Below, one piece after another: positions 1 to 17,069 of a stretch of 27,447 nt of DNA. A model generated the notes under the pieces. The model saw only the letters and a list, made by a program, of their open reading frames with translations. It had not been told where the DNA came from and did not search any database. How positions within the stretch are numbered: position 1 is the stretch's first letter; each line of letters opens with the position of its first letter. Source of the stretch: a virus; IMG/VR virus record IMGVR_UViG_3300025138_000268, positions 1-27,447 of that record. One strand, 5' to 3'. A program made the position numbers and the translations under genes.

Positions 1-185
1 GAACCATCTACACCTGAAGTACCGCTTGAACCTGCTGTACCGCTTGAGCCACTTGTACCTGATGAGCCACTTGTACCTGATGAACCACTTGTACCTGATG
101 TACCGCTTGAGCCACTTGTACCTGATGAGCCACTTGTACCTGATGAACCACTTGTACCTGATGAACCACTTGTACCTGATGTTCC
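1..185 (-). repeat. collagen-coding repeat block 5 (cut by window edge)
   Basis: Gly-X-Y triplets resume after about 350 residues of non-collagen sequence and continue to base 1, so the protein extends beyond the window. Confidence 0.85.
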
Positions 186-3100
186 GTTTTCTGCAAAGCT
201 TATAAATACAGGCTCTAAATCGCTAAAAATATTTCCTGAATTACTAGATGATATAACTGAACCAACACAAGTTATTAAATTTGATGTAGGTCCAGATACA
301 CTAGTAAATGCAAAAGTAATAAATTGCGTAGTATCTAATTTCTTTCTTATTGTTAAAACTCCTGGGGATGGTGGTGTAGGAACAGTATTACCATCATCGT
401 CTTGATTAAAAAATACAATATTAGTATTACTATTTTGAGTTGTGTTATTTCCTTGTACCCTACCTGTTGGTGGGTTAGTTAAAATGTTTGTTTTAAAATT
501 ATAAAGATAAGTATTTGGGGCAACTATCCCATTTAAACCATTTCGAGAAAACGATATAGATAATCTATCACCTGTAGTATCATTATATGTAAATTGATTT
601 ACAGTTAATTGAGTAACAGTTAAACCAAATACACCTGCTTGACCTGAATAATCTTTTTGGATTGAATCTAATCTTAAAACAAGTATATTATTTGAATCAT
701 TTAGTGATGGTTGTACTACTATAGTTCCCCATCCCTGAGGTGTAGTAGATGGTGGTGAGGAACTTGCTGCCCAACTATATATGTAATTCTGTTGGTCATT
801 ATCAAATAAATCATCACTATTTATTGTATATATTGAATCACTTACTCTAGTAAATGCACCCTCTGCTGTTTGAGTAGTTTTTGCTTTATAACTTAAGCCT
901 CCTCTATCACCTGCTCCAACATAACCACAAAGTGTAAAATCATCTCCTACTGAAATTGTTCCAAATGAACCATTAACATATATTACTGAAATTTCATTTG
1001 TTGTTGATTGTTGTTGTTTTTTAAAAAGAGCTGTATTTCCACTAGGATCCTTTAATGTAATAGTATCATCTATATTTAAACCATTTAATAATAAGTAACC
1101 TGGTGCTGTCTGGCTTTGAAAATCAAGAGATTTAATAGCACTAGCTGTTGTAGTAGTTGCGGAATTACTATCTAAAAAATTAACTTTAGAAGATGTATTA
1201 ATTGTAGTAGTATATTCAATAAGTTGACAACTACCAATTAAACCATCTTCACCTGATGTACCTGATGAACCACTTGTACCTGATGAACCACTTGTACCTG
1301 ATGAACCTGCTGTACCGCTTGAGCCACTTGTACCTGATGAACCATCTTCACCTGAAGTACCGCTTGAACCTGCTGTACCACTTGAGCCACTTGTACCTGA
1401 TGAACCATCTACACCTGAAGTTCCTGATGAACCTGAAGTTCCTGATGAACCACTTGTACCTGAAGAACCATCTACACCTGAAGTTCCTGATGAACCTGAA
1501 GTACCTGATGAACCATCTTCACCTGAAGTTCCTGATGAACCTGCTGTACCGCTTGAGCCACTTGTACCTGATGAACCATCTTCACCTGAAGTACCGCTTG
1601 AACCTGCTGTACCACTTGAGCCACTTGTACCTGATGAACCATCTACACCTGAAGTTCCTGATGAACCTGAAGTACCTGATGAACCATCTTCACCTGAAGT
1701 ACCACTTGAACCTGCTGTACCTGATGAGCCTGAAGTTCCTGAAGAACCATCTTCACCTGAAGTTCCTGATGAACCTGCTGTACCTGATGAACCTGAAGTT
1801 CCTGAAGAACCATCTGCACCTGAAGTTCCTGATGAACCTGAAGTACCTGATGAACCTGAAGTACCTGATGAACCATCTTCACCTGAAGTACCGCTTGAAC
1901 CACTTGTACCTGATGAACCTGAAGAAGTATAACCACAAAGTGTAAAATTATCTCCTGTTGAAACTGTTCCAAATGCACCATTAGTATAATTTACTGCTAT
2001 AGTATTACTACTAGTACTTGCATAAGTATAAAGAGCTATATTTCCATTAACATCAGTTATTGTAATTATATCACCTAAATTTAAAGGATTTAGTAATAAA
2101 AAAGCTGGTGCTTGTGTTGATTGGAATTTTAAAAATGCAACATTACTAGCTGTTGTAGTACTATTTTGACTACTATTCAATAAATCAAATTGATCAGATT
2201 GTGTTGGTGTTGGTTGTAATTTAACAATATCACAACTACCAACAGTACCACTTGTACCTGATGAACCACTTGTACCTGATGAACCTGAAGTTCCTGAAGA
2301 ACCATCTGCACCTGAAGTACCGCTTGAACCTGCTGTACCGCTTGAGCCACTTGTACCTGATGAACCATCTTCACCTGAAGTACCACTTGAACCTGAAGTA
2401 CCACTTGAACCTGCTGTACCACTTGAACCACTTGTACCTGAAGAACCATCTGCACCTGAAGTTCCTGAAGAACCATCTGCACCTGAAGTACCTGATGAAC
2501 CTGCTGTACCGCTTGAGCCACTTGTACCTGAAGAACCATCTGCACCTGAAGTACCGCTTGAACCTGCTGAACCAAATGTACTACCAAATATACAAATTTC
2601 TCCGTTTCCTGTTGCTATTGTTCCTCCTGATGTTACAAATTCTAAATTTGTAAATCTATAAACATCTCCTGTTTTTGAAACTGTAGTAAAATTATATTGT
2701 CCTTCAGCTCCACCATTAGCTATTCCTTTAATAGATCCAATTTGTGTAGATATAAACTGGTTTAAGAAAAGAGAGTTATCATCCCCATTAATATCCTCTT
2801 CATGTATGTAAATATCAGTTACTGCCCCCCATATTATTCCACTAAAGAAAGAAGCTTTACCTGATAAAGGTGTTGAGGTACTGCTTACATAATCATATTC
2901 ATAACATCTTGTAGATGATAATCCTGAAGTTCCTGATGAACCACTTGTACCTGAAGAACCATCTGCACCTGAAGTTCCTGATGAACCTGAAGTACCTGAT
3001 GAACCATCTTCACCTGAAGTTCCTGATGAACCTGCTGTACCTGATGAGCCTGAAGTTCCTGAAGAACCATCTACACCTGAAGTTCCTGATGAACCTGAAG

Positions 3101-6100
3101 TACCTGATGAACCATCTTCACCTGAAGTACCGCTTGAACCTGCTGTACCACTTGAACCACTTGTACCTGATGAACCATCATTACCTGAAGTACCGCTTGA
3201 ACCACTTGTACCTGAAGAACCATCTACACCTGATGTACCTGAAGAACCATCTGCACCTGAAGTTCCTGATGAACCTGCTGTACCTGATGAACCTGAAGTT
3301 CCTGAAGAACCATCTGCACCTGAAGTACCACTTGAACCTGCTGTACCTGATGAGCCTGAAGTTCCTGATGAACCATCTTCACCTGAAGTACCGCTTGAAC
3401 CTGCTGTACCACTTGAACCACTTGTACCTGAAGAACCATCTACACCTGAAGTTCCTGATGAACCTGAAGTACCTGATGAACCATCGTCACCTGAAGTACC
3501 TGATGAACCTGAAGTACCTGATGAGCCTGAAGTTCCTGATGAACCATCTTCACCTGAAGTACCTGAAGAACCATCTGCACCTGAAGTACCACTTGAACCT
3601 GCTGTACCTGATGAGCCTGAAGTTCCTGAAGAACCATCTGCACCTGAAGTACCTGATGAACCTGCTGTACCGCTTGAACCACTTGTACCTGAAGAACCAT
3701 CGTCACCTGAAGTACCGCTTGAACCACTTGTACCTGATGATATATAACCACAAATTACTAAACTAGCTCCTTGTGCTAAATTTGTAAATGAACCACTTAC
3801 ATAAGTTACTCCTATTTGAGTTCCAGATGTTGCTAAATAAGTATAATTAGCTATATTCCCATTAGGATCTTGTATTGTAATTACATCACCTACTGATAAA
3901 CCATTTAATATTAAAAATAAAGGAGCTGATGTGCTTGCAAATTGTAATCTAGCAACAGCACTAGCTGTTAATGTTGAATTATTACTACTATCTAAAAGAT
4001 TTACTTGATCTGTTCCTGAAACAACGGTTGTAAGTTTAACTGTTGAACAACCTCCTCCTTCATTACAACATTGACTAAAAACACAAGTAGTAACAGTATT
4101 TCCTTGTTGAGCTCCCGTAAAAGAACCTGATATATAACTTACATTTATAGCTGTGGAAGAAGGCTGTCCTAATATTGTAAAAGTAGCAGTACCCCCATTA
4201 ATTGTTATTTCTATTATAGAGCCAGTACTTACACCAGCAAGTAATTGTAAAGTTGGATCGCTTGTACTATTAAAAGTTAATTGAGTAGTAAGATTAGCTG
4301 TAAGTGTTGCTGATCCATTACTTTGTTTCATTATAATTTTTCCTGCTGACATCGCAGATACGGCAGCTATATTTGTGCTGCACGAGCCACTTAAACCATC
4401 TGTACCTGAAGTACCACTTGAACCTGCTGTACCTGATGAGCCTGAAGTTCCTGATGAACCTGAAGTACCTGATGAACCATCTTCACCTGAAGTACCACTT
4501 GAACCTGCTGTACCTGATGAGCCTGAAGTTCCTGATGAACCACTTGTACCTGATGAACCATCATTACCTGAAGTACCGCTTGAACCACTTGTACCTGAAG
4601 AACCATCTACACCTGATGTACCTGAAGAACCATCTGCACCTGAAGTTCCTGATGAACCTGCTGTACCTGATGAACCTGAAGTTCCTGAAGAACCATCTGC
4701 ACCTGATGTGCCTGATGAACCTGAAGTACCTGATGAACCATCGTTACCTGAAGTACCGCTTGAACCACTTGTACCTGATGAACCATCATTACCTGAAGTA
4801 CCGCTTGAACCACTTGTACCTGAAGAACCATCTACACCTGATGTACCTGAAGAACCATCTGCACCTGAAGTTCCTGATGAACCTGCTGTACCTGATGAAC
4901 CTGAAGTTCCTGAAGAACCATCTACACCTGAAGTTCCTGATGAACCTGAAGTACCTGATGAACCATCGTCACCTGAAGTACCGCTTGAACCACTTGTACC
5001 TGAAGAACCATCTACACCTGAAGTACCTGAAGAACCATCTACACCTGATGTACCCGAAGAACCATCTGCACCTGAAGTACCACTTGAACCTGCTGTACCT
5101 GATGAGCCTGAAGTTCCTGATGAACCATCTTCACCTGATGTACCTGATGAACCATCTGCACCTGAAGTTCCTGATGAACCATCTTCACCTGAAGTTCCTG
5201 ATGAACCTGCTGTACCTGATGAACCTGAAGTTCCTGAAGAACCATCTGCACCTGAAGTTCCTGATGAACCTGAAGTACCTGATGAACCATCGTCACCTGA
5301 AGTACCGCTTGAACCACTTGTACCTGAAGAACCATCTACACCTGATGTACCTGATGAGCCATCTACACCTGAAGTACCTGATGAACCATCTACACCTGAT
5401 GTACCTGAAGAACCATCTGCACCTGATGTACCTGATGAACCTGAAGTACCTGATGAACCATCGTCACCTGAAGTACCGCTTGAACCACTTGTACCTGAAG
5501 AACCATCTACACCTGATGTACCTGATGAGCCATCTACACCTGAAGTACCTGATGAACCATCTACACCTGAAGTACCTGATGAACCATCTTCACCTGAAGT
5601 TCCTGATGAACCTGCTGTACCGCTTGAGCCACTTGTACCTGATGAACCATCGTCACCTGAAGTACCGCTTGAACCACTTGTACCTGAAGAACCATCTGAA
5701 CCTGATGTACCTGATGAGCCATCTACACCTGAAGTACCTGATGAACCATCTACACCTGATGTACCTGAAGAACCTGAAGTACCTGATGAACCATCGTCAC
5801 CTGAAGTACCGCTTGAACCACTTGTACCTGAAGAACCATCTACACCTGATGTACCTGAAGAACCATCCACACCTGAAGTACCTGATGAACCATCTGCACC
5901 TGAAGTACCTGATGAACCTGCTGTACCTGATGAACCTGAAGTTCCTGAAGAACCATCTGCACCTGAAGTTCCTGATGAACCTGAAGTACCTGATGAACCA
6001 TCTGCACCTGAAGTACCTGATGAACCATCTTCACCTGAAGTACCGCTTGAACCACTTGTACCTGAAGAACCATCTACACCTGATGTACCTGAAGAACCAT

Positions 6101-6797
6101 CTACACCTGAAGTACCTGATGAACCATCTGCACCTGAAGTACCTGATGAACCTGCTGTACCGCTTGAGCCACTTGTACCTGATGAACCATCATCACCTGA
6201 AGTACCGCTTGAACCACTTGTACCTGAAGAACCATCTGCACCTGAAGTACCTGATGAACCTGCTGTACCGCTTGAGCCACTTGTACCTGATGAACCATCG
6301 TCACCTGAAGTACCGCTTGAACCACTTGTACCTGAAGAACCATCTACACCTGAAGTACCTGAAGAACCATCTACACCTGATGTACCTGAAGAACCATCTA
6401 CACCTGAAGTACCTGATGAACCTGCTATACCTGACGTTCCACTTGAGCCACTTGTACCTGAAGAACCATCAGAACCTGAAGTACCTGAAGAACCATCGGA
6501 ACCTGAAGTACCTGATGAACCTGCTGAGCTACTTCCTACAAATAACCAATTACTAAGTGATGTATAATCAGCATCTAATAAAACATAAACACCATTATTA
6601 GCAGCAGTAGAATCTTCAGCTACAGTAACTGTCATACCTACATAAGCATAAATAACATTATCGTTTGCAGTCCATGAAGCAGCTAATAATAAATCTGCTT
6701 GAGTTGGGCATATAGCTCTCCCATCAAATGGAGCCGCAATTTGAGGTTCGAAATTTGCCGATATCGCTAATAATCCGTTTAATCTATTCCCTGCCAT
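1..6797 (-). CDS. giant collagen-like tail-fibre protein (3' end outside window)
   Basis: Starts at the ATG at 6797-6795, 3 bp after the stop of the upstream fibre gene, and stays open to the window edge (at least 2265 codons, C-terminus missing). I followed the frame through every non-repeat stretch and found no stop; the repeat blocks on either side are in the same phase. Residues 1-92 form a globular N-terminus (MAGNRLNGLLAISANFEPQ...), probably the virion attachment domain. Gly-X-Y blocks lie at about 93-804, 1019-1292, 1409-1520, 1623-1854 and from 2204 on. Triplets are mostly GTS, GSS, GTA, GVD, GED, GAD, GDD and GND, with no proline. Non-collagen domains interrupt the blocks, each beginning and ending with Cys. 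Collagen-like triplets are known in phage fibres, where they form trimeric rods; this role is inferred. The length is exceptional. Confidence 0.88.
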   Translation of the reverse strand, partial: MAGNRLNGLLAISANFEPQIAAPFDGRAICPTQADLLLAASWTANDNVIYAYVGMTVTVAEDSTAANNGVYVLLDADYTSLSNWLFVGSSSAGSSGTSGSDGSSGTSGSDGSSGTSGSSGTSGIAGSSGTSGVDGSSGTSGVDGSSGTSGVDGSSGTSGSSGTSGDDGSSGTSGSSGTAGSSGTSGADGSSGTSGSSGTSGDDGSSGTSGSSGTAGSSGTSGADGSSGTSGVDGSSGTSGVDGSSGTSGSSGTSGEDGSSGTSGADGSSGTSGSSGTSGADGSSGTSGSSGTAGSSGTSGADGSSGTSGVDGSSGTSGVDGSSGTSGSSGTSGDDGSSGTSGSSGTSGVDGSSGTSGVDGSSGTSGSDGSSGTSGSSGTSGDDGSSGTSGSSGTAGSSGTSGEDGSSGTSGVDGSSGTSGVDGSSGTSGVDGSSGTSGSSGTSGDDGSSGTSGSSGTSGADGSSGTSGVDGSSGTSGVDGSSGTSGVDGSSGTSGSSGTSGDDGSSGTSGSSGTSGADGSSGTSGSSGTAGSSGTSGEDGSSGTSGADGSSGTSGEDGSSGTSGSSGTAGSSGTSGADGSSGTSGVDGSSGTSGVDGSSGTSGSSGTSGDDGSSGTSGSSGTSGVDGSSGTSGSSGTAGSSGTSGADGSSGTSGVDGSSGTSGSSGTSGNDGSSGTSGSSGTSGNDGSSGTSGSSGTSGADGSSGTSGSSGTAGSSGTSGADGSSGTSGVDGSSGTSGSSGTSGNDGSSGTSGSSGTSGSSGTAGSSGTSGEDGSSGTSGSSGTSGSSGTAGSSGTSGTDGLSGSCSTNIAAVSAMSAGKIIMKQSNGSATLTANLTTQLTFNSTSDPTLQLLAGVSTGSIIEITINGGTATFTILGQPSSTAINVSYISGSFTGAQQGNTVTTCVFSQCCNEGGGCSTVKLTTVVSGTDQVNLLDSSNNSTLTASAVARLQFASTSAPLFLILNGLSVGDVITIQDPNGNIANYTYLATSGTQIGVTYVSGSFTNLAQGASLVICGYISSGTSGSSGTSGDDGSSGTSGSSGTAGSSGTSGADGSSGTSGSSGTAGSSGTSGADGSSGTSGEDGSSGTSGSSGTSGSSGTSGDDGSSGTSGSSGTSGVDGSSGTSGSSGTAGSSGTSGEDGSSGTSGSSGTAGSSGTSGADGSSGTSGSSGTAGSSGTSGADGSSGTSGVDGSSGTSGSSGTSGNDGSSGTSGSSGTAGSSGTSGEDGSSGTSGSSGTSGVDGSSGTSGSSGTAGSSGTSGEDGSSGTSGSSGTSGADGSSGTSGSSGTSGLSSTRCYEYDYVSSTSTPLSGKASFFSGIIWGAVTDIYIHEEDINGDDNSLFLNQFISTQIGSIKGIANGGAEGQYNFTTVSKTGDVYRFTNLEFVTSGGTIATGNGEICIFGSTFGSAGSSGTSGADGSSGTSGSSGTAGSSGTSGADGSSGTSGADGSSGTSGSSGTAGSSGTSGSSGTSGEDGSSGTSGSSGTAGSSGTSGADGSSGTSGSSGTSGSSGTSGTVGSCDIVKLQPTPTQSDQFDLLNSSQNSTTTASNVAFLKFQSTQAPAFLLLNPLNLGDIITITDVNGNIALYTYASTSSNTIAVNYTNGAFGTVSTGDNFTLCGYTSSGSSGTSGSSGTSGEDGSSGTSGSSGTSGSSGTSGADGSSGTSGSSGTAGSSGTSGEDGSSGTSGSSGTAGSSGTSGEDGSSGTSGSSGTSGVDGSSGTSGSSGTAGSSGTSGEDGSSGTSGSSGTAGSSGTSGEDGSSGTSGSSGTSGVDGSSGTSGSSGTSGSSGTSGVDGSSGTSGSSGTAGSSGTSGEDGSSGTSGSSGTAGSSGTSGSSGTSGSSGTSGEDGLIGSCQLIEYTTTINTSSKVNFLDSNSATTTTASAIKSLDFQSQTAPGYLLLNGLNIDDTITLKDPSGNTALFKKQQQSTTNEISVIYVNGSFGTISVGDDFTLCGYVGAGDRGGLSYKAKTTQTAEGAFTRVSDSIYTINSDDLFDNDQQNYIYSWAASSSPPSTTPQGWGTIVVQPSLNDSNNILVLRLDSIQKDYSGQAGVFGLTVTQLTVNQFTYNDTTGDRLSISFSRNGLNGIVAPNTYLYNFKTNILTNPPTGRVQGNNTTQNSNTNIVFFNQDDDGNTVPTPPSPGVLTIRKKLDTTQFITFAFTSVSGPTSNLITCVGSVISSSNSGNIFSDLEPVFISFAENGTSGTSGSSGTSGSSGTSGSSGTSGSSGTSGTSGSSGTSGSSGTSGSSGTAGSSGTSGVDG
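1236..1925 (-). repeat. collagen-coding repeat block 4
   Basis: About 77 Gly-X-Y triplets (residues about 1625-1854), the same phase. It separates the last two Cys-bounded domains of the giant protein. Confidence 0.87.
2238..2573 (-). repeat. collagen-coding repeat block 3
   Basis: About 37 Gly-X-Y triplets (residues about 1409-1520), the same phase and triplet vocabulary as blocks 1 and 2. It is flanked by the Cys-bounded domains at 2594-2906 and 1935-2234. Confidence 0.86.
2925..3742 (-). repeat. collagen-coding repeat block 2
   Basis: Uninterrupted Gly-X-Y triplets in the same reading phase as block 1, covering roughly residues 1019-1291 of the giant protein. It lies between the second and third Cys-bounded domains. 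Acidic triplets of the type G-(V/E/A/D/N)-D recur among GTS, GSS and GTA. Confidence 0.88.
4386..6521 (-). repeat. collagen-coding repeat block 1 (about 237 Gly-X-Y triplets)
   Basis: In-frame 9-nt units, each a Gly-X-Y triplet, assembled into 18-54 nt higher-order units such as GSSGTSGVDGSSGTSG. Codon choice is very uniform (GGT, TCA, ACT/ACA, GAT), so the DNA itself is repetitive. This is the longest of five such blocks in the gene. Confidence 0.9.
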
Positions 6798-6800
6798 ATC

Positions 6801-8171
6801 TTAATTTATAAATTTTAATTTTCTAGCTCCAATTTGCCCCCCATTATGAGTATATAAATTATACGTAATAGGATTACCTTCTACTGTTCTAGTTTCTGTT
6901 GTTAATGTAAAAGTTGTTAAACCCCCTGTTATAGGTACAAAACTTCCTGGAGATAATGGATCTTCCTGTTGAACATCTGTAAATGCTGTAAATCCGGATT
7001 GCCCCCCTGCTGTATTAGGAATTGAGATTGCTTGTTTATTTCCTGCAGTTCCATCTTCAAGGATCATATCCACTATAACATCATTATTACCCATATTTTG
7101 TAAAGATAATTGATCTGTTACATTATAATTTGTTGTTGTTGCAAATACTGGAAAAACTCCTGTCATGCTTCTTGAAGTAGATCCTGGTGGGTTAAATCCA
7201 GGAGCTAACGGTGTTGAGAAATCCCCACCTACACTGTCTTTAGGTTGTGGACCTATATCATAATTAACTGATACTGAAAATGAATTTGTACCTGCTGTTA
7301 CTGTGTATGTAGAAGTATTAGCTACTGTGTTACTTAATGCTGTAGTACTTACAGATGTAACAAATGCAGATGCCGGAGATGTATAATTATAAGTATTTGG
7401 TAAACCACTTCTTTTATTAGTAGCTGTTGTATATTGAGGATTAATTGATCCCTGATTAAAAGTACAAGATAATGTTAAATTACCTGCTGTTAGTAGTTTT
7501 CCTATTATTTGAAAACCATTAGGTGTTAAATTAACAGATTGAAGTGATGGGTTAGATAATGAAGGAAATAAAGTTGGATATAACATTAAATCCATCATTT
7601 CTTGAAATGATTTTCCAGGTGATGGAAATGTTGTTCCTGTTGATATATTATCAAAAGGTGAATTTCCTGGGAAGTTCTGGGGTAAAGCAGTTGCATTAAT
7701 GAAATTACCACCTCCTGCAGAATCAATTGTTATTTCAGTAGCACTAGTTTGAGTTAAAGTAATACCTGTTCCTTCTGTTAAATTAACTGTTGAATCTGCC
7801 CCAGCTGCAGCATCTAATTTTAAAGGAACACTTGTTCCTGATTTTGTCCCTGCTGTTAAAGTATATGTGTCTCCTCCTCCAGTAAAGGTAACATCAGCTG
7901 TATTACCATTTTGTGTTACTACTACTCCACTACCTATAAAATTTAAACCTGTTGCTGCATTAATTATAGTAGTTCCATCATCTTGTACTGTAACTCCACC
8001 AAAACCTGGTATAGCTGTTAGATCAAAACTTTGGGATAAAACATTATTATAAGTATAAAAATTTAAGTCAGTACCCACTAATGAAGCAGAGTAAAAGAGA
8101 CTTTGAAAGTTACCATCTACTTCAGCAAATGTTAACTCAGAACCTTTATCTAACCTTAAAATTATTGACAT
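6801..8171 (-). CDS. tail-fibre / virion adhesin-like protein
   Basis: 456 residues. Near the N-terminus (residues 13-25) is LTFAEVDGNFQSL, the kind of short 'LTFxExDxNF' segment that opens many T4-like marine phage tail-fibre proteins. The rest is Thr/Ser/Gly/Asn-rich and looks like beta structure (for example GVTVQDDGTTIINAATG), with no membrane segment or catalytic motif. The C-terminus ends YNLYTHNGGQIGARKLKFIN. It sits between the tail-completion gene and the giant collagen-like gene. Its stop is 3 bp before the giant gene's ATG and in the same frame, suggesting the two are co-expressed and perhaps assembled into one fibre. An ATATTTATA motif lies 13 nt before the start. The fibre role rests on the N-terminal motif, composition and context. 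Confidence 0.65.
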   Translation of the reverse strand: MSIILRLDKGSELTFAEVDGNFQSLFYSASLVGTDLNFYTYNNVLSQSFDLTAIPGFGGVTVQDDGTTIINAATGLNFIGSGVVVTQNGNTADVTFTGGGDTYTLTAGTKSGTSVPLKLDAAAGADSTVNLTEGTGITLTQTSATEITIDSAGGGNFINATALPQNFPGNSPFDNISTGTTFPSPGKSFQEMMDLMLYPTLFPSLSNPSLQSVNLTPNGFQIIGKLLTAGNLTLSCTFNQGSINPQYTTATNKRSGLPNTYNYTSPASAFVTSVSTTALSNTVANTSTYTVTAGTNSFSVSVNYDIGPQPKDSVGGDFSTPLAPGFNPPGSTSRSMTGVFPVFATTTNYNVTDQLSLQNMGNNDVIVDMILEDGTAGNKQAISIPNTAGGQSGFTAFTDVQQEDPLSPGSFVPITGGLTTFTLTTETRTVEGNPITYNLYTHNGGQIGARKLKFIN

Positions 8172-8210: not shown

Positions 8211-9161
8211 TTATATTTTATCATTAAAACTTGTAGGATTATTTTTTGAAGGTATAGAAAGTCGGGGATTTGATGAATAATTATCTTCTGGTAAGATTTT
8301 AACTGTTTCTAAATTAAATATTAGTTGAGTAGCATTACTTAATTTTTTAACTGACGCTAATTCTTTTTGTATAGTATCAGGAACTAAATATCCATGAAGT
8401 TTTAATGAAAATTCTGTTTTAACAATTCTATTCCCTGCTGATTCTATTTCAACAGATGTAGCATAATTATTTATACGTGCTCTAAATTTAAATCTTTCAG
8501 GATTACCCCAATATGAATCTGAAGCATAATTCATAGCTTCTACAATTTTATTCATTTGTTCTACATAATAAGTAGATATAATAAAATCATAAGTTAAAGC
8601 TACATAATCTGGTACTACAACAGCATATGACTCTTTTTTTGGTATTCTATTATTTAAAATATTAAAATTATCATATTCGTTTTTTTGACTATACTGTTTT
8701 TGAAATAATTGAACATTGTTTGGATAATTAGCATCTAATTTATTTGCTATGCTTCTAATTTTTTCAACATTGTTACGTTTAAAAGTAATAACAGGCATCA
8801 TTATTTTACCTTTTAAATCTCTATAGTATCCTTGTTTTTGCACTTGTGCCCATCGTTCAGGTGAACCATAATAAATTGGTACCTTAGTAACTACACCATT
8901 TTGCAAAACTGTAGGTTTTATTACATTTTCTAAATAATAAAATATAGCTTCATCATTTTCTTTTAAACCTAATACAAAAGGTTTTGTATTATCATCTCTA
9001 AAAGATACTTGATTACCTCTATTATTTTTATCGGGAAATGCTCTATTAGGATTTCCTGTTGTTTCACCATTTTCAGGATTTTTATAAGTATCCTGTACAG
9101 GATTACTTAAAAGTATTTCCTTTTGTGTTTTAGGTCTAGGTATTTTTCCGTGTTCTGCCAT
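8211..9161 (-). CDS. gp15-like tail completion / sheath stabiliser
   Basis: 316 residues. The segment from about residue 91 (VTKVPIYYGSPERWAQV) to about 265 (FSLKLHGYLVPD) follows the pattern I know from T4 gp15: a 'VPIxYxSxExW' strand, a 'YDFIISTYYVEQMNKIVEAM' stretch, and an 'xEFSLxxxGYLVPD' ending. In T4, gp15 caps the tail and attaches it to the head neck. The N-terminal ~80 residues are charged and Asn/Pro-rich, probably flexible. The start is 1 bp downstream of the preceding stop (gp14-like gene), consistent with the T4 order 13-14-15. The paralogous tail terminator gp3 is an alternative identity. Confidence 0.7.
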   Translation of the reverse strand: MAEHGKIPRPKTQKEILLSNPVQDTYKNPENGETTGNPNRAFPDKNNRGNQVSFRDDNTKPFVLGLKENDEAIFYYLENVIKPTVLQNGVVTKVPIYYGSPERWAQVQKQGYYRDLKGKIMMPVITFKRNNVEKIRSIANKLDANYPNNVQLFQKQYSQKNEYDNFNILNNRIPKKESYAVVVPDYVALTYDFIISTYYVEQMNKIVEAMNYASDSYWGNPERFKFRARINNYATSVEIESAGNRIVKTEFSLKLHGYLVPDTIQKELASVKKLSNATQLIFNLETVKILPEDNYSSNPRLSIPSKNNPTSFNDKI

Positions 9162-9162
9162 A

Positions 9163-9747
9163 TTAAATAAATCTTGCTTGAGTTAAACCTAATTTATCTG
9201 CTTGTACATAATGAGATTTGCAAATAATTGAAATATTAGAACCATAATTACTTAAGTCACCATTTAAAGGTGCATTTATTGGATTTGGATCATTTGGATA
9301 ATCTGGATTTTTACCTACAAAATATTGGTTAGCTATTACTTCATGTACTTCATAATATCCTTCATTATACATAATAATATCACCTACTTGTGGAACTAAA
9401 TCTGCACCATATTGAGCTGTAGTATCTGTATATGACATACCTTCTCCATTAAAATCTTCATTTTTACCTAATAAATCATCTCTTAAAAAACTAAATTGTA
9501 TTTCTTTATTAAAATCAGTTCCTAAATCACTTTCAGGATAAATTTCATCAGTTCTTTCTACTAAAGTATTAAGTAAAACTGGTCCCATATAATATTTTTC
9601 TTCAGCTGCTTCACCATATAAGTTAATTTTTGTTTCTTCTAATTTATATTTGTAGAAAGCACACTGCTCTGTTATAATATCACCCATTAACTCTCTACTC
9701 ATATGTCTGAATAGACTTACATCCCTTTGTGTACCAAATAGTGCCAT
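9163..9747 (-). CDS. gp14-like neck protein
   Basis: 194 residues, starting MALFGTQRDVSLFRHMSREL. The N-terminus (RELMGDIITEQCAFYKYKLEETK), the middle 'YMGPVLLNTLVE' and the segment VPQVGDIIMYNEGYYEVHEV followed by a short FVGKNPDYP stretch recall the 'GDxI...YEVxxV...' core of T4-type gp14 neck proteins. In T4 these join gp13 to complete the head and dock the tail. The gene lies between a larger connector-like gene and the gp15-like gene with gaps of 1 bp on each side. The assignment combines a weak motif match with strong position. Confidence 0.6.
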   Translation of the reverse strand: MALFGTQRDVSLFRHMSRELMGDIITEQCAFYKYKLEETKINLYGEAAEEKYYMGPVLLNTLVERTDEIYPESDLGTDFNKEIQFSFLRDDLLGKNEDFNGEGMSYTDTTAQYGADLVPQVGDIIMYNEGYYEVHEVIANQYFVGKNPDYPNDPNPINAPLNGDLSNYGSNISIICKSHYVQADKLGLTQARFI

Positions 9748-9748
9748 A

Positions 9749-10969
9749 TTATCCTATATAAATTACTCTTGGAACTCTATCTAACTCTTGCATTACAAAA
9801 TTAGATTCAGCAGTTCTTCTTTCTAATAATTTTTCTCTTGAAGTTTCATCAAAATATGCTCTTAATTGTTCTAATAATGCTGCTTTTTCATCTCTTGCTG
9901 CTTGTAGTAAACTAGCTTGGTTAAGTGTTATTTCAGCGTTAGGTATTGGAACCGTTTCATATTTTCCTCTTACATACCCTAACATTTCTTTACATATAGC
10001 TAAAGTCATTTCAAATATCCAACTTCTACCTATAGAATTTATTCTGGCATATGTAGGATTTTCATAAGGAACTTCAGCTACGGTTTTAATTTTTTCATCA
10101 AATTCATCTAATACTAAAGATGCTGATGATCTTTCTGATTTTAGCATTATTTCTACCCACATAGAGCCTGCTCCTTTTAAGGATCCAGATGCATCTAATT
10201 CATTACCAAATCCTCCATTTGCTTCTCCTGGTATTGGAAATACTCTTAAAACATTATTATGCATTTCAAAAGAAAAATTAGATAATCTAACTTCTTGATT
10301 TAATTCTAATTGTTGTATAACGGCCATATCATAATTTAAAGGCATCATTAAATATCCACCTCCACCTAATCCTCCTAAACCTGCACCTAAACCATCAATA
10401 CCAGCTGCTACTGTTCCTCCTAATCCAAATCCAAATCCGTCATATTGATCAGCCCAATAAGCAGATGCTGGTGGTGCTTCATAAAACACTCTCATAATTT
10501 GAATGTCATTTTTCTTTTTAAACCCTGCATCAGCTGCTATTTTATCTAAATCATAATCTTGAACACCAGATGTTAAATTTACTTTTAATTTATGCCAAGG
10601 AACATTTCCACCTGTACCGGCTTCAGACCCATATTGTTCTGAGTAATCAATTACTCTTCCTAAATTAGGGGTTACAATAGTTTCATTAATGTTTACTGTA
10701 TTTTCTGCACCTTCTAATGTTAAATAATTTTCTCTAATTTTATAAGCATATAATTCATTTCCATATATAGTTACTGCTTCCTCAAATGCAGCATAAAAAT
10801 TTTTATCTTGTAATTCAATTTCAACTAAAGGATATCCTAATCTTAGAGCACAAAAATTTGCTACTTTATCTGCATCTTTTTCAAATTCTATATCACGATC
10901 ATAAAAACCAAAAGGAGTATCTCCTGGATGGAATGAACTAGAACCGGGCCAAATTGGTATGTTTGCCAT
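9749..10969 (-). CDS. gp13-like neck / head-tail connector protein
   Basis: 406 residues, starting MANIPIWPGSSSFHPGDTPF. Residues about 30-75 (KVANFCALRLGYPLVEIEL, then FYAAFEEAVTIYGNEL) resemble the helical N-terminal part of head-tail adaptor proteins. An unusual Gly-rich loop (GFGFGLGGTVAAGIDGLGAG and following) lies at about residues 180-205, followed by MMPLNYDMAVIQ. The C-terminal part is helical and charged (EKAALLEQLRAYFDETSREK). It is the first of three neck/tail-completion genes in the order expected for 13-14-15. It is longer than T4 gp13. Some other portal-associated adaptor is possible. Confidence 0.55.
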   Translation of the reverse strand: MANIPIWPGSSSFHPGDTPFGFYDRDIEFEKDADKVANFCALRLGYPLVEIELQDKNFYAAFEEAVTIYGNELYAYKIRENYLTLEGAENTVNINETIVTPNLGRVIDYSEQYGSEAGTGGNVPWHKLKVNLTSGVQDYDLDKIAADAGFKKKNDIQIMRVFYEAPPASAYWADQYDGFGFGLGGTVAAGIDGLGAGLGGLGGGGYLMMPLNYDMAVIQQLELNQEVRLSNFSFEMHNNVLRVFPIPGEANGGFGNELDASGSLKGAGSMWVEIMLKSERSSASLVLDEFDEKIKTVAEVPYENPTYARINSIGRSWIFEMTLAICKEMLGYVRGKYETVPIPNAEITLNQASLLQAARDEKAALLEQLRAYFDETSREKLLERRTAESNFVMQELDRVPRVIYIG

Positions 10970-10979
10970 AATTTATTTT

Positions 10980-12311
10980 TTAATTAGTTGCTATTGGAGC
11001 GTTAACTATTACATATTCTACATCTACACTTTCTGATACTGCATACACAGATATAAATTCTATATCTTGTTCAAATAAGCCATTAAATTGACTTCCGGAA
11101 CAATTTGGACTTGAAAACATTATAGATGAAGTTGGTAAACATTCCATAGTCCAGTAACTTTTAGTTCCTGTTAATGAAAAATCTTCTGTTTTTAAAATAT
11201 ATCCTAAATCATTAGTTGAATTTCCAATATTTGATTTTGCTACTGTTATAGTATCCCCAACATTATAGTTACTCCCCCCTGTTTGAATGGTTACATTAGT
11301 AGGTTTTACTGTAATATTTGCTGCTTGTAAAGCTGGTAATGTATTTGCTGCTGATGTAGCCATATTTGCTGCAGATAAATTTCCTAAATAATCTCCACTA
11401 ACCGCTCCAAATCCTAAATTTTCTAATGTAGATTCTTCTATTGTAATATCTTGATTAACAGCATATCCTAAACCAACAGCATTAATAACTACTGTTGTGA
11501 TTACTGAACCTGCTGATGTAATTGTAGCTGTTGCTCCTTGCCCTGTAGATGTTGTAAGAGGAACATTATTTACTACTTGATTTATTGATACTGTAGGTAC
11601 TATTATATTAGCTATTGTACTTGATTTTGTTAAATTTCCATTTGATAAAGCACCTGATGGAATTACTAATTGGTCGCCAATAGAATAACCTGATCCTGAT
11701 GTAGTAAATGTTATAGAAGTATAAGTTGGTATTGAAGCATCATTTCCTGTTCCTGCTGTTACTACAACAGAACCACTTACTCCTATTCCTGTACCTCCAG
11801 TTAAACCTATGTTATAAGTTCCTATAGCTGCATTTGTAGTTGCTAAAGGGGTTAATGTAAGTGATGGAGTTAAATTTATAGTTTCATCTGTTACTACTCT
11901 TAATTGCATTCCACTTCCACTAATACTAGTAGTTGGAACATTAGAATAAATTCCTGCTGTGCCACCTATTCCTCCACTTGCATAAGATCCACTTAAATCT
12001 GAGCCTACCTTTCCTGATTCTGATTCACCATTTGATGATGTAAAAGTAACTGCTAAACGATTAGCATCATCCATATTTGTTATTCTCCCATAAGCTATAC
12101 TATATGAAGGGAATAAAGCTGGTCCAGGAATTAAACCATTGGTATTAATTAAGTCTACATTAGTTTTAGCAGGAACTGTTACAATTCTTCTATCATAATT
12201 AGTTACATTAGGAATTCTATAAAAATTTTCATGTACAGTTCTTTGACCGCCAACGATATGCTCTTCTTTTATGTTTACACGAAAAGTATTGGATTTAACA
12301 GTTGATGCCAT
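10980..12311 (-). CDS. putative virion surface protein with repeated GxGYxxGD domains
   Basis: 443 residues of Thr/Ser/Ala/Gly-rich, probably beta-rich sequence. A repeated motif appears at about residues 205 (GSGYSIGDQLVIP), 282 (GLGYAVNQDITIE) and 349 (GSNYNVGDTITVA), suggesting three tandem small beta domains. The same type of motif occurs in the insert of the major capsid protein here (PGRGYAAGDILTF). The ends are different: VPAKTNVDLINTNGLIPGP near the N-terminus and SVDVEYVIVNAPIATN at the C-terminus. There are no catalytic motifs or membrane segments. Located just before the neck genes, it could be a head decoration, whisker or collar protein; the function is not established. An ATATTTATA motif lies 11 nt before the start. 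Confidence 0.55.
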   Translation of the reverse strand: MASTVKSNTFRVNIKEEHIVGGQRTVHENFYRIPNVTNYDRRIVTVPAKTNVDLINTNGLIPGPALFPSYSIAYGRITNMDDANRLAVTFTSSNGESESGKVGSDLSGSYASGGIGGTAGIYSNVPTTSISGSGMQLRVVTDETINLTPSLTLTPLATTNAAIGTYNIGLTGGTGIGVSGSVVVTAGTGNDASIPTYTSITFTTSGSGYSIGDQLVIPSGALSNGNLTKSSTIANIIVPTVSINQVVNNVPLTTSTGQGATATITSAGSVITTVVINAVGLGYAVNQDITIEESTLENLGFGAVSGDYLGNLSAANMATSAANTLPALQAANITVKPTNVTIQTGGSNYNVGDTITVAKSNIGNSTNDLGYILKTEDFSLTGTKSYWTMECLPTSSIMFSSPNCSGSQFNGLFEQDIEFISVYAVSESVDVEYVIVNAPIATN

Positions 12312-12361: not shown

Positions 12362-13096
12362 TTATTTTTTTCTACTCTTTCCACTACTTCCAGAAGTATT
12401 TAAAATTCCTTTTTCAGAAGCTGATTCATAAATTTCAATTAAATCATCAACAATAGGATCTCTGTGGTTTTGGAGTAAAGTAACCCCAGTCATTTTTTTA
12501 ATTCTTCGTGAAGCAGCATATAAAAATCTAAAACCTGAGTCTGCTTTTCCTCTTAAATCAATTTGATGATCATCACCACAAACTACCATTTTTGATCTTA
12601 AACCAATTCTAGTTGCTATCATCTCCATTTGTTCGTGAGTAACATTTTGAGCTTCATCTACAATAATACAACTATCTAAAAAAGTTCTTCCTCTCATAAA
12701 AGCTAAAGGTACTATTTCTATTTTACCATCTTCAATTAATTTTTCAACTTTTACTTTATCATAAAGAGTATACATATTTTGATAAATAGGTTGAATCCAA
12801 GGATCCATTTTTTCTCTTAAATCCCCAGGTAAAAATCCAATTTCTTCTTTTGAAACTGTAGGTCTGGTTATTATTATTTTTGAATAGTGTCTTCTTAGAA
12901 GTCCGTCTAAAGCTATATTACATGCTAATAATGTTTTTCCAGAACCTGCTCTACCAGCTAATATTGTTAAAGTATTTTCTAATATTTTTGCTTTAGCTTC
13001 TTTTTGTTCTTCGTTTAATTGTATTTTAAATTTAATTGGATTCTTCACTATTCTTTTGGGTCTAAATACTTCGTCTGTATGATGGTTTGAGGTCAT
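12362..13096 (-). CDS. phoH: PhoH-family P-loop ATPase
   Basis: 244 residues. The Walker A motif is at about residues 47-55 (AGRAGSGKT) and Walker B at 143-150 (CIIVDEAQ), followed by NVTHEQMEMIATRIG and VVCGDDHQIDLRG, all hallmark PhoH-family segments. ITRPTVSKEEIGFLPGD is the other conserved block. PhoH genes are common in marine phages; the family has ATPase and, for some members, RNA-related activity, but the phage function is unresolved. The ATG overlaps the end of the phosphatidylserine decarboxylase gene by 35 bp, so translation is probably coupled. The PhoH domain begins near residue 22, so this start leaves a short basic extension (FRPKRIVKNP). Confidence 0.93.
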   Translation of the reverse strand: MTSNHHTDEVFRPKRIVKNPIKFKIQLNEEQKEAKAKILENTLTILAGRAGSGKTLLACNIALDGLLRRHYSKIIITRPTVSKEEIGFLPGDLREKMDPWIQPIYQNMYTLYDKVKVEKLIEDGKIEIVPLAFMRGRTFLDSCIIVDEAQNVTHEQMEMIATRIGLRSKMVVCGDDHQIDLRGKADSGFRFLYAASRRIKKMTGVTLLQNHRDPIVDDLIEIYESASEKGILNTSGSSGKSRKK

Positions 13097-13805
13097 TATG
13101 GGTTATTTTAATTAGTTTATCAAGGCCTGCATTAATATGATTTGTTTTATTTAATAAAAGATCAAATTTAAATCTTTTATCTAAAGGTAAAACTAAATCT
13201 ACTTGGGAACCCCACCTAATTAAACTAAATCTTTCATTTTGAGTACAAAGATCTTGTTGTTTTTTAAATGGAGCTATTACATTTACATCTTCATCGGCTA
13301 TTTGAATTATATGATATGTGTAATCTAAAGAAGGTACATATATCTGGTTAGACATTCTTTCGTTAAATTTTAAATAATCCATATTATTAGGATTAATAAC
13401 TCTATTTAATATATCCTTTTCGACAGCTAACATGGGTTTGTTAGTTGATTCAATAGGTTCTAAATTTTTATATTTTATAACACCTCCATAAGGTATTCTA
13501 TTAATATGTACATCATAAAAAGACATAAATATTCCTATTACTAATGAAGGTTGTTTATAGGTTTTATCTCCCATAACATCTTGAAGTGTATAATCTATAC
13601 CTTTTATTTCAAGTACTTGCTCCCCAGGTTGGGCTACTTTTTGATATAAAATAGTTCCATCAGCTGGGCTATAAAAATGTTCATGGTCTATATGTGTAGG
13701 TCTTATTGGGTCTCTAAAAAAGAAATTATTACTTAATTCACCTACCGACATTTTAGATAATTCTGCAACTTCTCCATTTAGCCAATCTTCTAAAGTCTCA
13801 GCCAT
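13062..13805 (-). CDS. psd: phosphatidylserine decarboxylase (phage-encoded)
   Basis: 247 residues. Matches the pyruvoyl-dependent phosphatidylserine decarboxylase pattern: YSPADGTI (Asp49), SFYDVHINRIPYGGVI (His100), and ERFSLIRWGSQVDLVLP with Gly199-Ser200. Family members self-cleave before this Ser to form the pyruvoyl group that converts phosphatidylserine to phosphatidylethanolamine at the membrane. The usual LGST motif reads WGSQ here, but the Ser is kept. No N-terminal membrane anchor is visible, so this is a short form. The ATG shares its A with the TAA of the upstream pentein gene (TAATG), indicating translational coupling, and the end overlaps phoH. Whether it cleaves and is active cannot be told from the sequence. 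Confidence 0.88.
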   Translation of the reverse strand: MAETLEDWLNGEVAELSKMSVGELSNNFFFRDPIRPTHIDHEHFYSPADGTILYQKVAQPGEQVLEIKGIDYTLQDVMGDKTYKQPSLVIGIFMSFYDVHINRIPYGGVIKYKNLEPIESTNKPMLAVEKDILNRVINPNNMDYLKFNERMSNQIYVPSLDYTYHIIQIADEDVNVIAPFKKQQDLCTQNERFSLIRWGSQVDLVLPLDKRFKFDLLLNKTNHINAGLDKLIKITHNDLKPSYRRSI

Positions 13806-14719
13806 TAAAGAAGTGATTTAAAATGATCAACTCTATTTAAATGCATTACCATGCAACTTAACATAGCTCCAGATTTCATGTATTCTGATAAATTAAATAT
13901 TATTGGTTCCATTCCTTCATCAGAACATATTTTTTCTAATGAAGTTATTTTGTGTTTTTCACCTTCATAAAATTCATCTCCTTGTTTCATTTCAGATATA
14001 TTAGAGGCACATAAAACCATATTACCTAATCTAACAGAATTGGCCATCCCATACATTGAATCATCAGCATCTATGTCTATTATGTTAGTATATTTGCTTA
14101 TTTGCGCTAACTCCGTCTTATCATATAGTTCCGTACAAACCATAGTTGACCGCGTATTTAACGGAAATATACTACAATCTAAATGATACATATACTCATC
14201 AACCATTTTAACTTTAATAATATTCATATCAAAATTTTCTTCCATCCAATGATAAGTTTGAATATCCGAACGAATATCATACCCACCTATATAAACATTA
14301 TCTTTTAAATATTTTATGTCTGCTTCACCTTCCCACTTATAAGGAGATATATGTGTTTTATAACCCATTTGATTAAAGAATTTTTCACCTACATATTCTT
14401 CACCTTGTCTAGGAGGAGAAGTATAATTAGATAATAAAATATGATTTTTATCTTTAATGTGGGGTAATTGTAGACCTAAATTTGCCACATATATTAAATC
14501 TTGAAAATTACCTTCTGAGGGTAGTAAATGTACCAATGATTGACCCGCCATAAAATTATACAAATCCATAAATTGCTTATATGCTTTAGGTCTATTAATA
14601 GATAATTCTTTTTCTGACATTTCTTTCATCCAAACATTATTTGGATTATTAGTAGAAAAGGTATGTGGGAAATTCATTACGTAACTTTGAATAGGTAACT
14701 GTGAGGGAGTCTCTTTCAT
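13805..14719 (-). CDS. pentein-superfamily enzyme (amidinotransferase / DDAH-like)
   Basis: 304 residues. Segments match the guanidino-group modifying pentein fold: NPNNVWMKEMS (about 25-35, like the substrate-side 'NPWM' region), an E-x-D site at KWEGEADIKYL (Glu132, Asp134), a histidine at MYHLDCSIFPL (His179) and a late cysteine at SGAMLSCMVMHLN (Cys289). This is the usual Glu/Asp-His-Cys catalytic arrangement. Family members transfer or hydrolyse the amidino group of arginine derivatives; the substrate here is unknown. First gene of a three-gene non-structural island after the capsid terminator, with an ATATTTATA motif 34 nt upstream of the ATG. Coupled by TAATG to the phosphatidylserine decarboxylase. 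Confidence 0.78.
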   Translation of the reverse strand: MKETPSQLPIQSYVMNFPHTFSTNNPNNVWMKEMSEKELSINRPKAYKQFMDLYNFMAGQSLVHLLPSEGNFQDLIYVANLGLQLPHIKDKNHILLSNYTSPPRQGEEYVGEKFFNQMGYKTHISPYKWEGEADIKYLKDNVYIGGYDIRSDIQTYHWMEENFDMNIIKVKMVDEYMYHLDCSIFPLNTRSTMVCTELYDKTELAQISKYTNIIDIDADDSMYGMANSVRLGNMVLCASNISEMKQGDEFYEGEKHKITSLEKICSDEGMEPIIFNLSEYMKSGAMLSCMVMHLNRVDHFKSLL

Positions 14720-14849: not shown

Positions 14850-17069
14850 TTAAAGTGTATTTAGATTTGATACGAAAATTCTTCCGTAAAATTCTGGTCT
14901 TAACATTTTCTTAGCATAACGAGTTAATAAACCTTTTCTTGGAGTGAAGGTTGTTGGATCGTATACTAATGGAGTCATGATTAATGGAATATATGGAGCA
15001 AATACTGCACCTGCTTCCAAGAATTGTCCACCTCTATATCCTAATAATATAGTATTATCAGTCATATATGGGTTTTTGTAAACTTGGTATCTTCCATTCA
15101 TTGATCCAGCTTTCTGTACACCAAATGCATAGCTCATTTTAGCAGCATCACCATCTGAGTTACTAGCAAATCCTGGAATAGATTCGATAATAGTAGCTAC
15201 TGATGGGGAACATACCATAAAATTAGCTCCACCTCTAAGTGTTCTTTGGTGAATGATGTTACTTAACTTCTGAACTTTAGTTCCTAATGTTTGGAACCAT
15301 TGTCCTTGAGAGTTAAAGAAATTCAAGTTACCATTTACAACACCTCCAGCACCAATTGCTAGGTTGTTTGTAGCACTCCAATATTCATCTCCAGCACCTG
15401 CTGATTCGATTAACATTGAAAGGATTTCTTGATCAATTTCTAATGAAATATACTCACTCATGATTGAAGTTAATTCAGCTTCTGCATCTAGAGAATGGTA
15501 AGCGTTAAGATCTTGAGCAAACTCAGGAGTCCAAACAGCTTTTAATTTTCTAGTTTTAGCAACGATAGCTTCACTTGACATTGCAACGTTGATTTCTGGA
15601 ATAGCAATTGGAGTATTGAAACCAGAACCACCAGCAGCAGGATCACCTAAAGCAGCATTTTGATCTTCAAAATCACCTCTGTTATTGTCAGAAGGTTGTA
15701 ATGTTTGTTGAGCGTTAAATCCAGTTACTGTTGAATTAACACCAGCACCTAAATCTACTACCCATCCTGCAGTTGCACCTGCAGCTGAAATAGTACCTAA
15801 TCCGAAGAAAGATATTACACCAGCAGCTGGAATATCAGCAGCGATTAATGTTAATACAATGTTTGTACCGGCAACAACAGCACCTGATAAAGGAAGCGCA
15901 GCAGCAGAGAATGTTAAAATATCTCCAGCAGCATAACCTCTACCTGGGTTGTTTACAATTACTACTGCAGCAGCAGCTGAACCTAGTAAATCAATTGTCA
16001 TACCAACACCACTAACCGAAGTTGAAGTTGTAGGTTTAATGTTGAAATCACCAACAGTTGCACCAATAGCAGCACCACCAGTACCACCATTATCTGTAAT
16101 TACACACTGAGCAGTAATATCAGATACTGTAGCAGTAGCTTTTAATGAACCTGCAGCTGCAGCTCCAAGAGCTGGTAAAATAGCACCTTGATCTACTTTT
16201 GTAAATGCTGGTAATTGAGTAGCTAATAAAGCATTACCTGCAGCATTTGAAGTTAAATAGAAACCTTCAATAGCTTCCATATCTGCAAATGTTTGTAGTA
16301 ATGTAGTAGCAGGAACAGCAGCTGATCCAGCAATAGCTCTTGTAGCTGGAGCTGAAACTTTAGTTACTGTAGTAGCAACTGAAGTTTGTAAACCATCAAA
16401 TGATGTACCAACAACACCTGTTAAAGCAAATGGGAAAGTTGAATCTGCATCTAAATCTAGATAGAAATCAGCATTACCAACAACTGCACAGTTAGCCAAT
16501 TGACCACCTACAACAGTGTTGAAATTTTGAGTTGAGTATCCAAATCTACCAGCACCATAAAGACCACCTGCAGCAGCGTTACCAAAACCACTAGTGTTAG
16601 TAGCTGGGTTAACTGGTGAAGGAGTACCATATAATGAAGTACCGTTAGCGAATGGTAGTTTAGCAGCATTTGCTCCAGCAGCTGGAGATCCAATTTGCGT
16701 CCCACCATATTGGAAATCTAGATAAAATACTAGACCAGAAGGAAGATTCATTGGTTGAACCGAAACGAATTCTTTCGCTGCGATTTGTCCAAATACCTTT
16801 CTTACTAATGGTAAAGCAACTCCAGCCCATTGGCCTGCAGCTCCCGTACCAGGATTAAAAGTAGCAGTACCTCCACCCGTTTGAGTGTTCTCTGTTACTA
16901 ATTGTTTAGCTTGATTCTCTAAGATCATAGACATATTATTTTTGTCTGTCTCAGAGTCCATGCCTTCAAGTAGTCCTGTTTTGGACCACTTGTTAGCTAA
17001 TCTTGCAGCATCACTTTGCAGTGATTTGTAAGAATTAGCGGATTCTAAAAGTGAATTTAATTGTGACAT
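14850..17069 (-). CDS. major capsid protein, gp23-like, with large insert
   Basis: 739 residues. Residues about 80-121 (GQWAGVALPLVRKVFGQIAA, then KEFVSVQPMNLPSGLVF) match the T4 gp23 core, and from about 490 the match resumes (AKTRKLKAVWTPEFAQDLNA, then YHSLDAEAELTSIMSEYISL). T4 gp23 has 521 residues; the excess is an Ala/Gly/Thr-rich insert around 125-480 that includes PGRGYAAGDILTF at 375-383. This is probably a surface-exposed domain. The N-terminal ~60 residues contain (I/L)-x-E sites such as MILE at 48-51, where a gp21-type protease could trim. The gene follows the scaffold by 37 bp and is closed by a strong terminator. Its sequence is visibly richer in G/C than its neighbours. Confidence 0.93.
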   Translation of the reverse strand: MSQLNSLLESANSYKSLQSDAARLANKWSKTGLLEGMDSETDKNNMSMILENQAKQLVTENTQTGGGTATFNPGTGAAGQWAGVALPLVRKVFGQIAAKEFVSVQPMNLPSGLVFYLDFQYGGTQIGSPAAGANAAKLPFANGTSLYGTPSPVNPATNTSGFGNAAAGGLYGAGRFGYSTQNFNTVVGGQLANCAVVGNADFYLDLDADSTFPFALTGVVGTSFDGLQTSVATTVTKVSAPATRAIAGSAAVPATTLLQTFADMEAIEGFYLTSNAAGNALLATQLPAFTKVDQGAILPALGAAAAGSLKATATVSDITAQCVITDNGGTGGAAIGATVGDFNIKPTTSTSVSGVGMTIDLLGSAAAAVVIVNNPGRGYAAGDILTFSAAALPLSGAVVAGTNIVLTLIAADIPAAGVISFFGLGTISAAGATAGWVVDLGAGVNSTVTGFNAQQTLQPSDNNRGDFEDQNAALGDPAAGGSGFNTPIAIPEINVAMSSEAIVAKTRKLKAVWTPEFAQDLNAYHSLDAEAELTSIMSEYISLEIDQEILSMLIESAGAGDEYWSATNNLAIGAGGVVNGNLNFFNSQGQWFQTLGTKVQKLSNIIHQRTLRGGANFMVCSPSVATIIESIPGFASNSDGDAAKMSYAFGVQKAGSMNGRYQVYKNPYMTDNTILLGYRGGQFLEAGAVFAPYIPLIMTPLVYDPTTFTPRKGLLTRYAKKMLRPEFYGRIFVSNLNTL

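Follow-up and report, generated by a model that had tools for sequence, protein, structure and literature searches.

The window that we analysed, a whole virus record of 27,447 bases, carries a gene whose product, judging from its sequence, is probably the chain that forms the stalk of a long, trimeric virion fibre in a T4-like phage (a myovirus) of Bacteroidota. An initial annotation had called it a single giant collagen-like fibre gene. Profile matches, the gene's neighbourhood, a complete relative of 3579 codons, and selection on glycine all agree with that description.

The open frame and its domains

On the minus strand, a frame is open from an ATG at 6797 to the end of the contig (6797..3), with 2265 codons and zero stops. 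This confirms the earlier claim of a frame of at least 2265 codons. The contig end cuts the fifth repeat block, so the C-terminus of the protein lies beyond the window. As shown in Table 1, blocks of Gly-X-Y triplets alternate with other domains.

Table 1. Layout of the fibre gene and its upstream border in the window
Feature	Position	Strand	Evidence
N-terminal domain, residues 1-92, candidate virion anchor	6522..6797	-	conserved; also heads non-collagen fibres; alignment A4
Collagen-like block 1, residues 93-806, 238 unbroken triplets	4380..6521	-	triplet count, shuffles
Two tandem type-A domains, residues 807-1021	3735..4379	-	self-similarity, pairwise matches
Collagen-like block 2, 91 triplets	2916..3734	-	triplet count
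Type-B-like domain, residues 1295-1408	2574..2915	-	resembles L003 domain (E 1.5e-4) and L018 domain
Collagen-like block 3, 38 triplets	2232..2573	-	triplet count
Type-A domain, residues 1523-1626	1920..2231	-	54% identical to second type-A domain
Collagen-like block 4, 77 triplets	1227..1919	-	triplet count
One type-A and two type-B domains, residues 1858-2204	186..1226	-	last type-B 42% identical to L003 domain; AlphaFold2 fold
Collagen-like block 5, at least 20 triplets, cut by contig end	3..185	-	triplet count
456-aa partner gene, directly upstream of fibre gene	6801..8171	-	homologue before anchored gene in 10/10 relatives compared
Three neck genes (316, 194, 406 aa), conserved border of fibre locus	8211..10969	-	phrog_211 E 8e-11, synteny

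The five blocks add up to 464 triplets (238, 91, 38, 77, and 20 or more), close to the earlier estimate of about 450. Glycine stands at 464 of 464 positions, where it also defines the blocks. Block 1 far exceeds chance: it has 238 perfect triplets, whereas none of 2000 shuffles of its residues gave a run above 13. The blocks had been described as all in phase. This is correct for the reading frame, which is common to all five, but not for the triplet registers (2, 1, 1, 0, 2), which differ because globular domains intervene. Similarly, the statement that there is no proline holds for every triplet (0 of 464) but not for the whole protein, which has 27 prolines, all outside the triplets. (Proline-rich X and Y positions, seen in collagens of animals and of most bacteria, are a usual trait but not a defining one.) The X residues are mostly Ser (191) and Thr (190), and to the Ser, Thr, Ala, and Asp that were listed earlier we add Val (27) and Glu (17), with Ala at 22; the Y residues are Ser (347), Asp (83), and Ala (29).

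The Pfam Collagen profile (PF01391) matches the open frame with E = 2e-187 and 607 bits, against a gathering cut-off of 27.2, and PHROG tail-fibre profiles match it with E values down to 7e-211, driven by the repeat. Since these profiles find the frame immediately, the warning that methods requiring a stop codon would miss the gene was overstated. The repeat also contains antisense open frames of about 730 codons, which are by-products of its composition. A caveat is that the longest exact DNA repeat is 171 bp, so the lengths of the blocks could be mis-assembled.

The seven domains between the blocks are each about 100 residues long; four are of type A and three of type B. We found no match to the type-A domain in GenBank phages. 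The type-B domains are shared with relatives, as seen in pairwise matches, and from an alignment of 27 of them AlphaFold2 predicted a confident beta fold (pLDDT 89.6). Searching the PDB with this fold gave nothing below E = 0.001. In BFVD, the fold (window 183-533) matched 43 viral proteins at E ≤ 0.001, and most of these are annotated as collagen-repeat proteins. It occurs together with collagen repeats both in phages and in giant viruses that infect eukaryotes (Klosneuvirus, Indivirus, and Marseillevirus). As modelled, type B is a viral fold common to phages and giant viruses, with no confident relative among solved structures.

Complete relatives and selection on glycine

One IMG/VR contig, L003, contains the whole gene (3579 codons, of which 662 triplets form 14 blocks, plus a domain at the C-terminus), and L018 contains a second complete copy (3688 codons, 698 triplets). 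L003 is the best guide to the sequence past the left end of the window; extending the contig through close relatives of residues 1970-2205 gave no confirmed match. This C-terminal domain has 39% identity to gp47 of Flavobacterium phage immuto, which is annotated as a "tail fiber protein." The domain also weakly matches an annotated lambda gpD-like head decoration protein. By similarity, the C-terminus missing from the window would most likely carry a tail-fibre tip domain like that of L003. As to homology, the tail-fibre assignment draws on the PHROG matches, which are repeat-driven, and on the match between L003 and immuto. As to location, the L003 gene has the neck genes on one side and the sheath and tube genes on the other. 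(The genes downstream of it encode, in order, a methyltransferase-like protein, a 235-aa protein, the tail sheath, and the tail tube.)

For the window and four other contigs (L017, L019, L020, and L002), the contig end falls within the fibre gene or at its start. This suggests that repeats of this kind break assemblies, and short-read viromes probably contain more long phage fibres than are reported from them.

We aligned the orthologues L003 and L018 as proteins and classed the codons by the register of L003. Among 609 glycine codons, 404 were identical, 205 differed synonymously, and none differed non-synonymously, as compared to 125 non-synonymous differences at X codons and 44 at Y codons; the aligner prefers to pair glycine with glycine, which makes the zero look slightly better than it is, but X codons still contrast strongly with this. 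Most of the alignment gaps (22 of 28) are multiples of three residues. In the window, where glycine defines the blocks, 67 of the 464 glycine codons are not GGT, all of them synonymous. Because glycine codons differ only synonymously, the repeat is translated and glycine is needed at every third residue, as in a triple helix. With this pattern the repeat cannot be non-coding or decaying, and a linker that is merely flexible becomes less likely.

The glycine rule can relax, however. In L002 (7378-11481), the register is unbroken for 456 triplets, with Ala, Ser, Asn, or Thr at 82 of the 456 glycine positions. These replacements are semi-regularly spaced, which is hard to square with a plain triple helix.

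The phage and the candidate anchor of the fibre

In the order of transcription, the fibre gene is preceded by terminase, portal, protease, and MCP genes, followed by PhoH, the neck genes, and the 456-aa partner gene. In profile searches, the MCP, portal, terminase, and protease are T4-like; of the features that mark a T4-like phage (myovirus), the sheath and tube were seen only in L003 and the others in the window. The 406-aa neck protein resembles the head-tail adaptor Ad2, and position suggests T4 names for the neck genes. The neck genes, partner gene, and anchored gene are in the same order in seven IMG/VR contigs (L002, L003, L016, L017, L018, L019, and L020), whose neck genes are 47-84% identical to those of the window, and the synteny from MCP through the neck genes and partner to the fibre is kept in relatives. 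The nearest isolate is immuto, with a capsid protein that is 64% identical over the 58% that aligns. Megablast of the remaining window gave nothing beyond 715 bp matching immuto in the MCP gene and a trace in Microcystis phage Mel-JY01. The host probably belongs to the Bacteroidota and is likely to be a flavobacterium.

Two other features of the window stand out. Between the capsid gene and PhoH (13062-14719, minus strand) are a phosphatidylserine decarboxylase (PF02666, E = 1.9e-25) and a 304-aa protein that, judged by eye, is possibly amidinotransferase-like; neither had any match in the relatives' loci. Also, there are inserted stretches in the capsid protein (14850-17069; 739 aa versus about 536 in immuto), in a 443-aa neck protein (10980-12311), and in the L003 sheath (L009:12416-15058). 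Both of the window's inserts resemble the sheath insert (E = 5e-7 and 6e-8), which gives the impression that a single domain spread from one structural gene to others.

Residues 1-92 of the fibre protein have homologues at 15 distinct IMG/VR loci (50-88% identity) and, at 30-38% identity, in gut phage proteins (five of the six records are crAss-like). The same head is found on giant proline-free stalks (the window, L003, and L018), on an 877-aa fibre with 46 triplets (L012-L015), on short proteins (L016 and L022), and on a 1109-aa protein that is not collagen-like (L004). In a crAss-like "tail protein" from cr11_1, the anchor homologue follows a region that is weakly similar to the 456-aa partner (BLAST E = 1e-4, from a single comparison). 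This fused arrangement suggests that the partner and the anchor act together. The AlphaFold2 model of the anchor is weak (pLDDT 55). The anchor domain had no matches in the PDB or in prokaryote genomes, and we found no PDB homologue of the fused crAss-like protein from which to place the docking site.

The proposed fibre and known systems

From the observations above, we infer a trimer, a triple helix, a site of attachment, and a role in adhesion. The 92-residue N-terminus, probably together with the 456-aa partner, would dock the fibre on the neck, tail, or baseplate, and three chains would coil round each other in collagen-like triple-helical segments. The domains that separate the blocks would probably keep the three chains together and restart the helix after each interruption (for type B, holding or renucleating the chains is suggested by its co-occurrence with collagen repeats), and they may bind surface glycans. 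Recombination could swap the stalk and the tip and leave the anchor in place, which is what one expects of a fibre for host recognition. If every triplet is triple-helical (0.286 nm per residue), then the blocks span about 400 nm.

Collagen stability is usually attributed to proline and hydroxyproline, and Ser/Thr triplets with no proline would be expected to form a triple helix only weakly. It is plausible that the chains trimerise without hydroxyproline, and candidates for keeping such triplets wound are low ambient temperature, periodic trimeric domains, and glycosylation. Gene linkage does not support glycosylation by linked glycosyltransferases as a general stabiliser: GT2 was found in only 14 of the 50 records with repeats, and none of the four anchor-family records tested had it. 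Genes of the GT-4/GT-9 families and an APS kinase gene do follow the L016 fibre genes, and sugar-transfer genes flank the fibre of Synechococcus phage S-CAM7. On L016's contig, the interval from the fibre genes to the sheath (L032:9042-15603) encodes an APS kinase, a GT-4/GT-9 fusion, and a PIG-L deacetylase-like protein, which is possibly a glycan-modifying cassette.

Instead of forming triple helices, the Gly-Ser/Thr blocks might be long tethers, either flexible or polyproline-II-like, made of single chains or of polyglycine-II bundles, with binding left to the domains between them. The lack of proline and the expected weakness of Ser/Thr-rich triplets would fit tethers, as would the 18% of register positions in L002 that are not glycine, which a continuous triple helix would tolerate badly. 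But a flexible linker would accept changes from glycine to serine or alanine, and a folded polyglycine-II bundle needs turns; block 1 has no turns and no break in its glycines, and none of the 609 glycine codons compared has a non-synonymous difference. We consider tethers to be unlikely. It is far less credible that the giant protein is not made at all and that the repeat reflects misassembly, slippage, or decay. The window's contig does end within the repeat, and the longest exact repeat is 171 bp. Nevertheless, the two complete relatives are open to a stop codon over their full lengths, the longest exact repeat in the L003 gene is only 77 bp, and the glycine differences (many synonymous, none non-synonymous) and the gaps in multiples of three residues are those of a translated repeat. 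For the family as a whole, an artefact is largely refuted.

Where the fibre sits on the virion is another issue. It could be a neck whisker, a head fibre, or a sheath decoration rather than a host-recognition tail fibre: the L003 gene is between the neck genes and the sheath gene, the T4 whisker gene wac adjoins the T4 neck genes, and the L003 C-terminus has its weak match to a head decoration protein. However, genes annotated as tail fibres occupy the same interval in immuto, and one of them is what the L003 C-terminus matches. The exchange of stalks on a conserved anchor is also typical of receptor-binding fibres. A whisker, head fibre, or decoration seems somewhat doubtful to us.

Giant proline-free collagen-like fibres are common in environmental phages, and the window's gene is one of many, some of them longer. 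A degenerate DNA pattern for GSSGTSG-x-y-GSSGTSG identified at least 120 stretches in viral contigs. Two pattern scans gave 83 loci that we read, and 71 of these have under 1% proline in their triplets (a few of the best frames may be antisense, such as L038 and L057, with 20-29% proline). Among the 83 loci listed, 37 have at least 200 triplets and 13 have at least 400. One record related to the window's family has a longer gene than the window's: it is complete, with 3328 codons and 1027 uninterrupted proline-free triplets, and lies beside an anchored 877-aa fibre (L031:2747-12733).

Returning to the triple-helical fibre, we tentatively suggest that environmental Bacteroidota phages use a proline-free Ser/Thr collagen triple helix that is stabilised by periodic trimeric domains instead of imino acids, in fibres of about 0.4 to 0.9 micrometres. 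If so, these fibres exceed typical virions in length, and they add to the collagens a large natural class that the known rules of stability do not cover. With as many as 1027 proline-free triplets and strict selection on glycine, this widespread class of viral proteins is a natural test of the Ser/Thr triple helix.

Giant proline-free phage fibres are a known but under-described kind of protein. The phage collagen-like fibres represented by PF01391 and by PHROG 6320, 5073, 8745, and 1806, as well as EPclA-D from EHEC prophages, share with the window's gene a Gly-X-Y stalk between globular domains, a location in a phage structural gene region, and no need for a hydroxylase. The longest collagen domain among the EPcl proteins has 322 residues, and that of EPclA is proline-rich (PMC3368898). 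In contrast, the window's gene has at least 464 triplets, is proline-free and Ser/Thr-rich in these, and has several domains between blocks. So the initial description of the fibre as far longer than typical is right relative to described cases, but not among environmental phages (662, 698, 1027, and 853 triplets). The last of these counts is from LR756501.1 (L025), a published but unannotated 735-kb genome of an uncultured phage, with fibre genes starting at 1865 (547 triplets) and 10867 (853 triplets). Like the window's protein, the larger of the two is a giant (at least 3487 aa) with almost no proline (0.2%) and a type-B domain, but it is from a different phage, and the anchor domain has no match in that record. 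The type-B domain is also present in collagen-repeat proteins of S-CAM7 and in a tail protein of Pelagibacter phage HTVC010P. The S-CAM7 proteins have Gly-X-Y blocks as in the window, but they are shorter (517-1375 aa), with 7-20% proline in their triplets. Two other relatives lack the collagen repeat: the Crassvirales cr11_1 tail protein (QOR58789.1), a single fused chain of 787 residues with the anchor domain after its partner-like region; and immuto gp47 (NC_055915; 578 aa), which shares the C-terminal domain of L003 and has T4-like neighbours.
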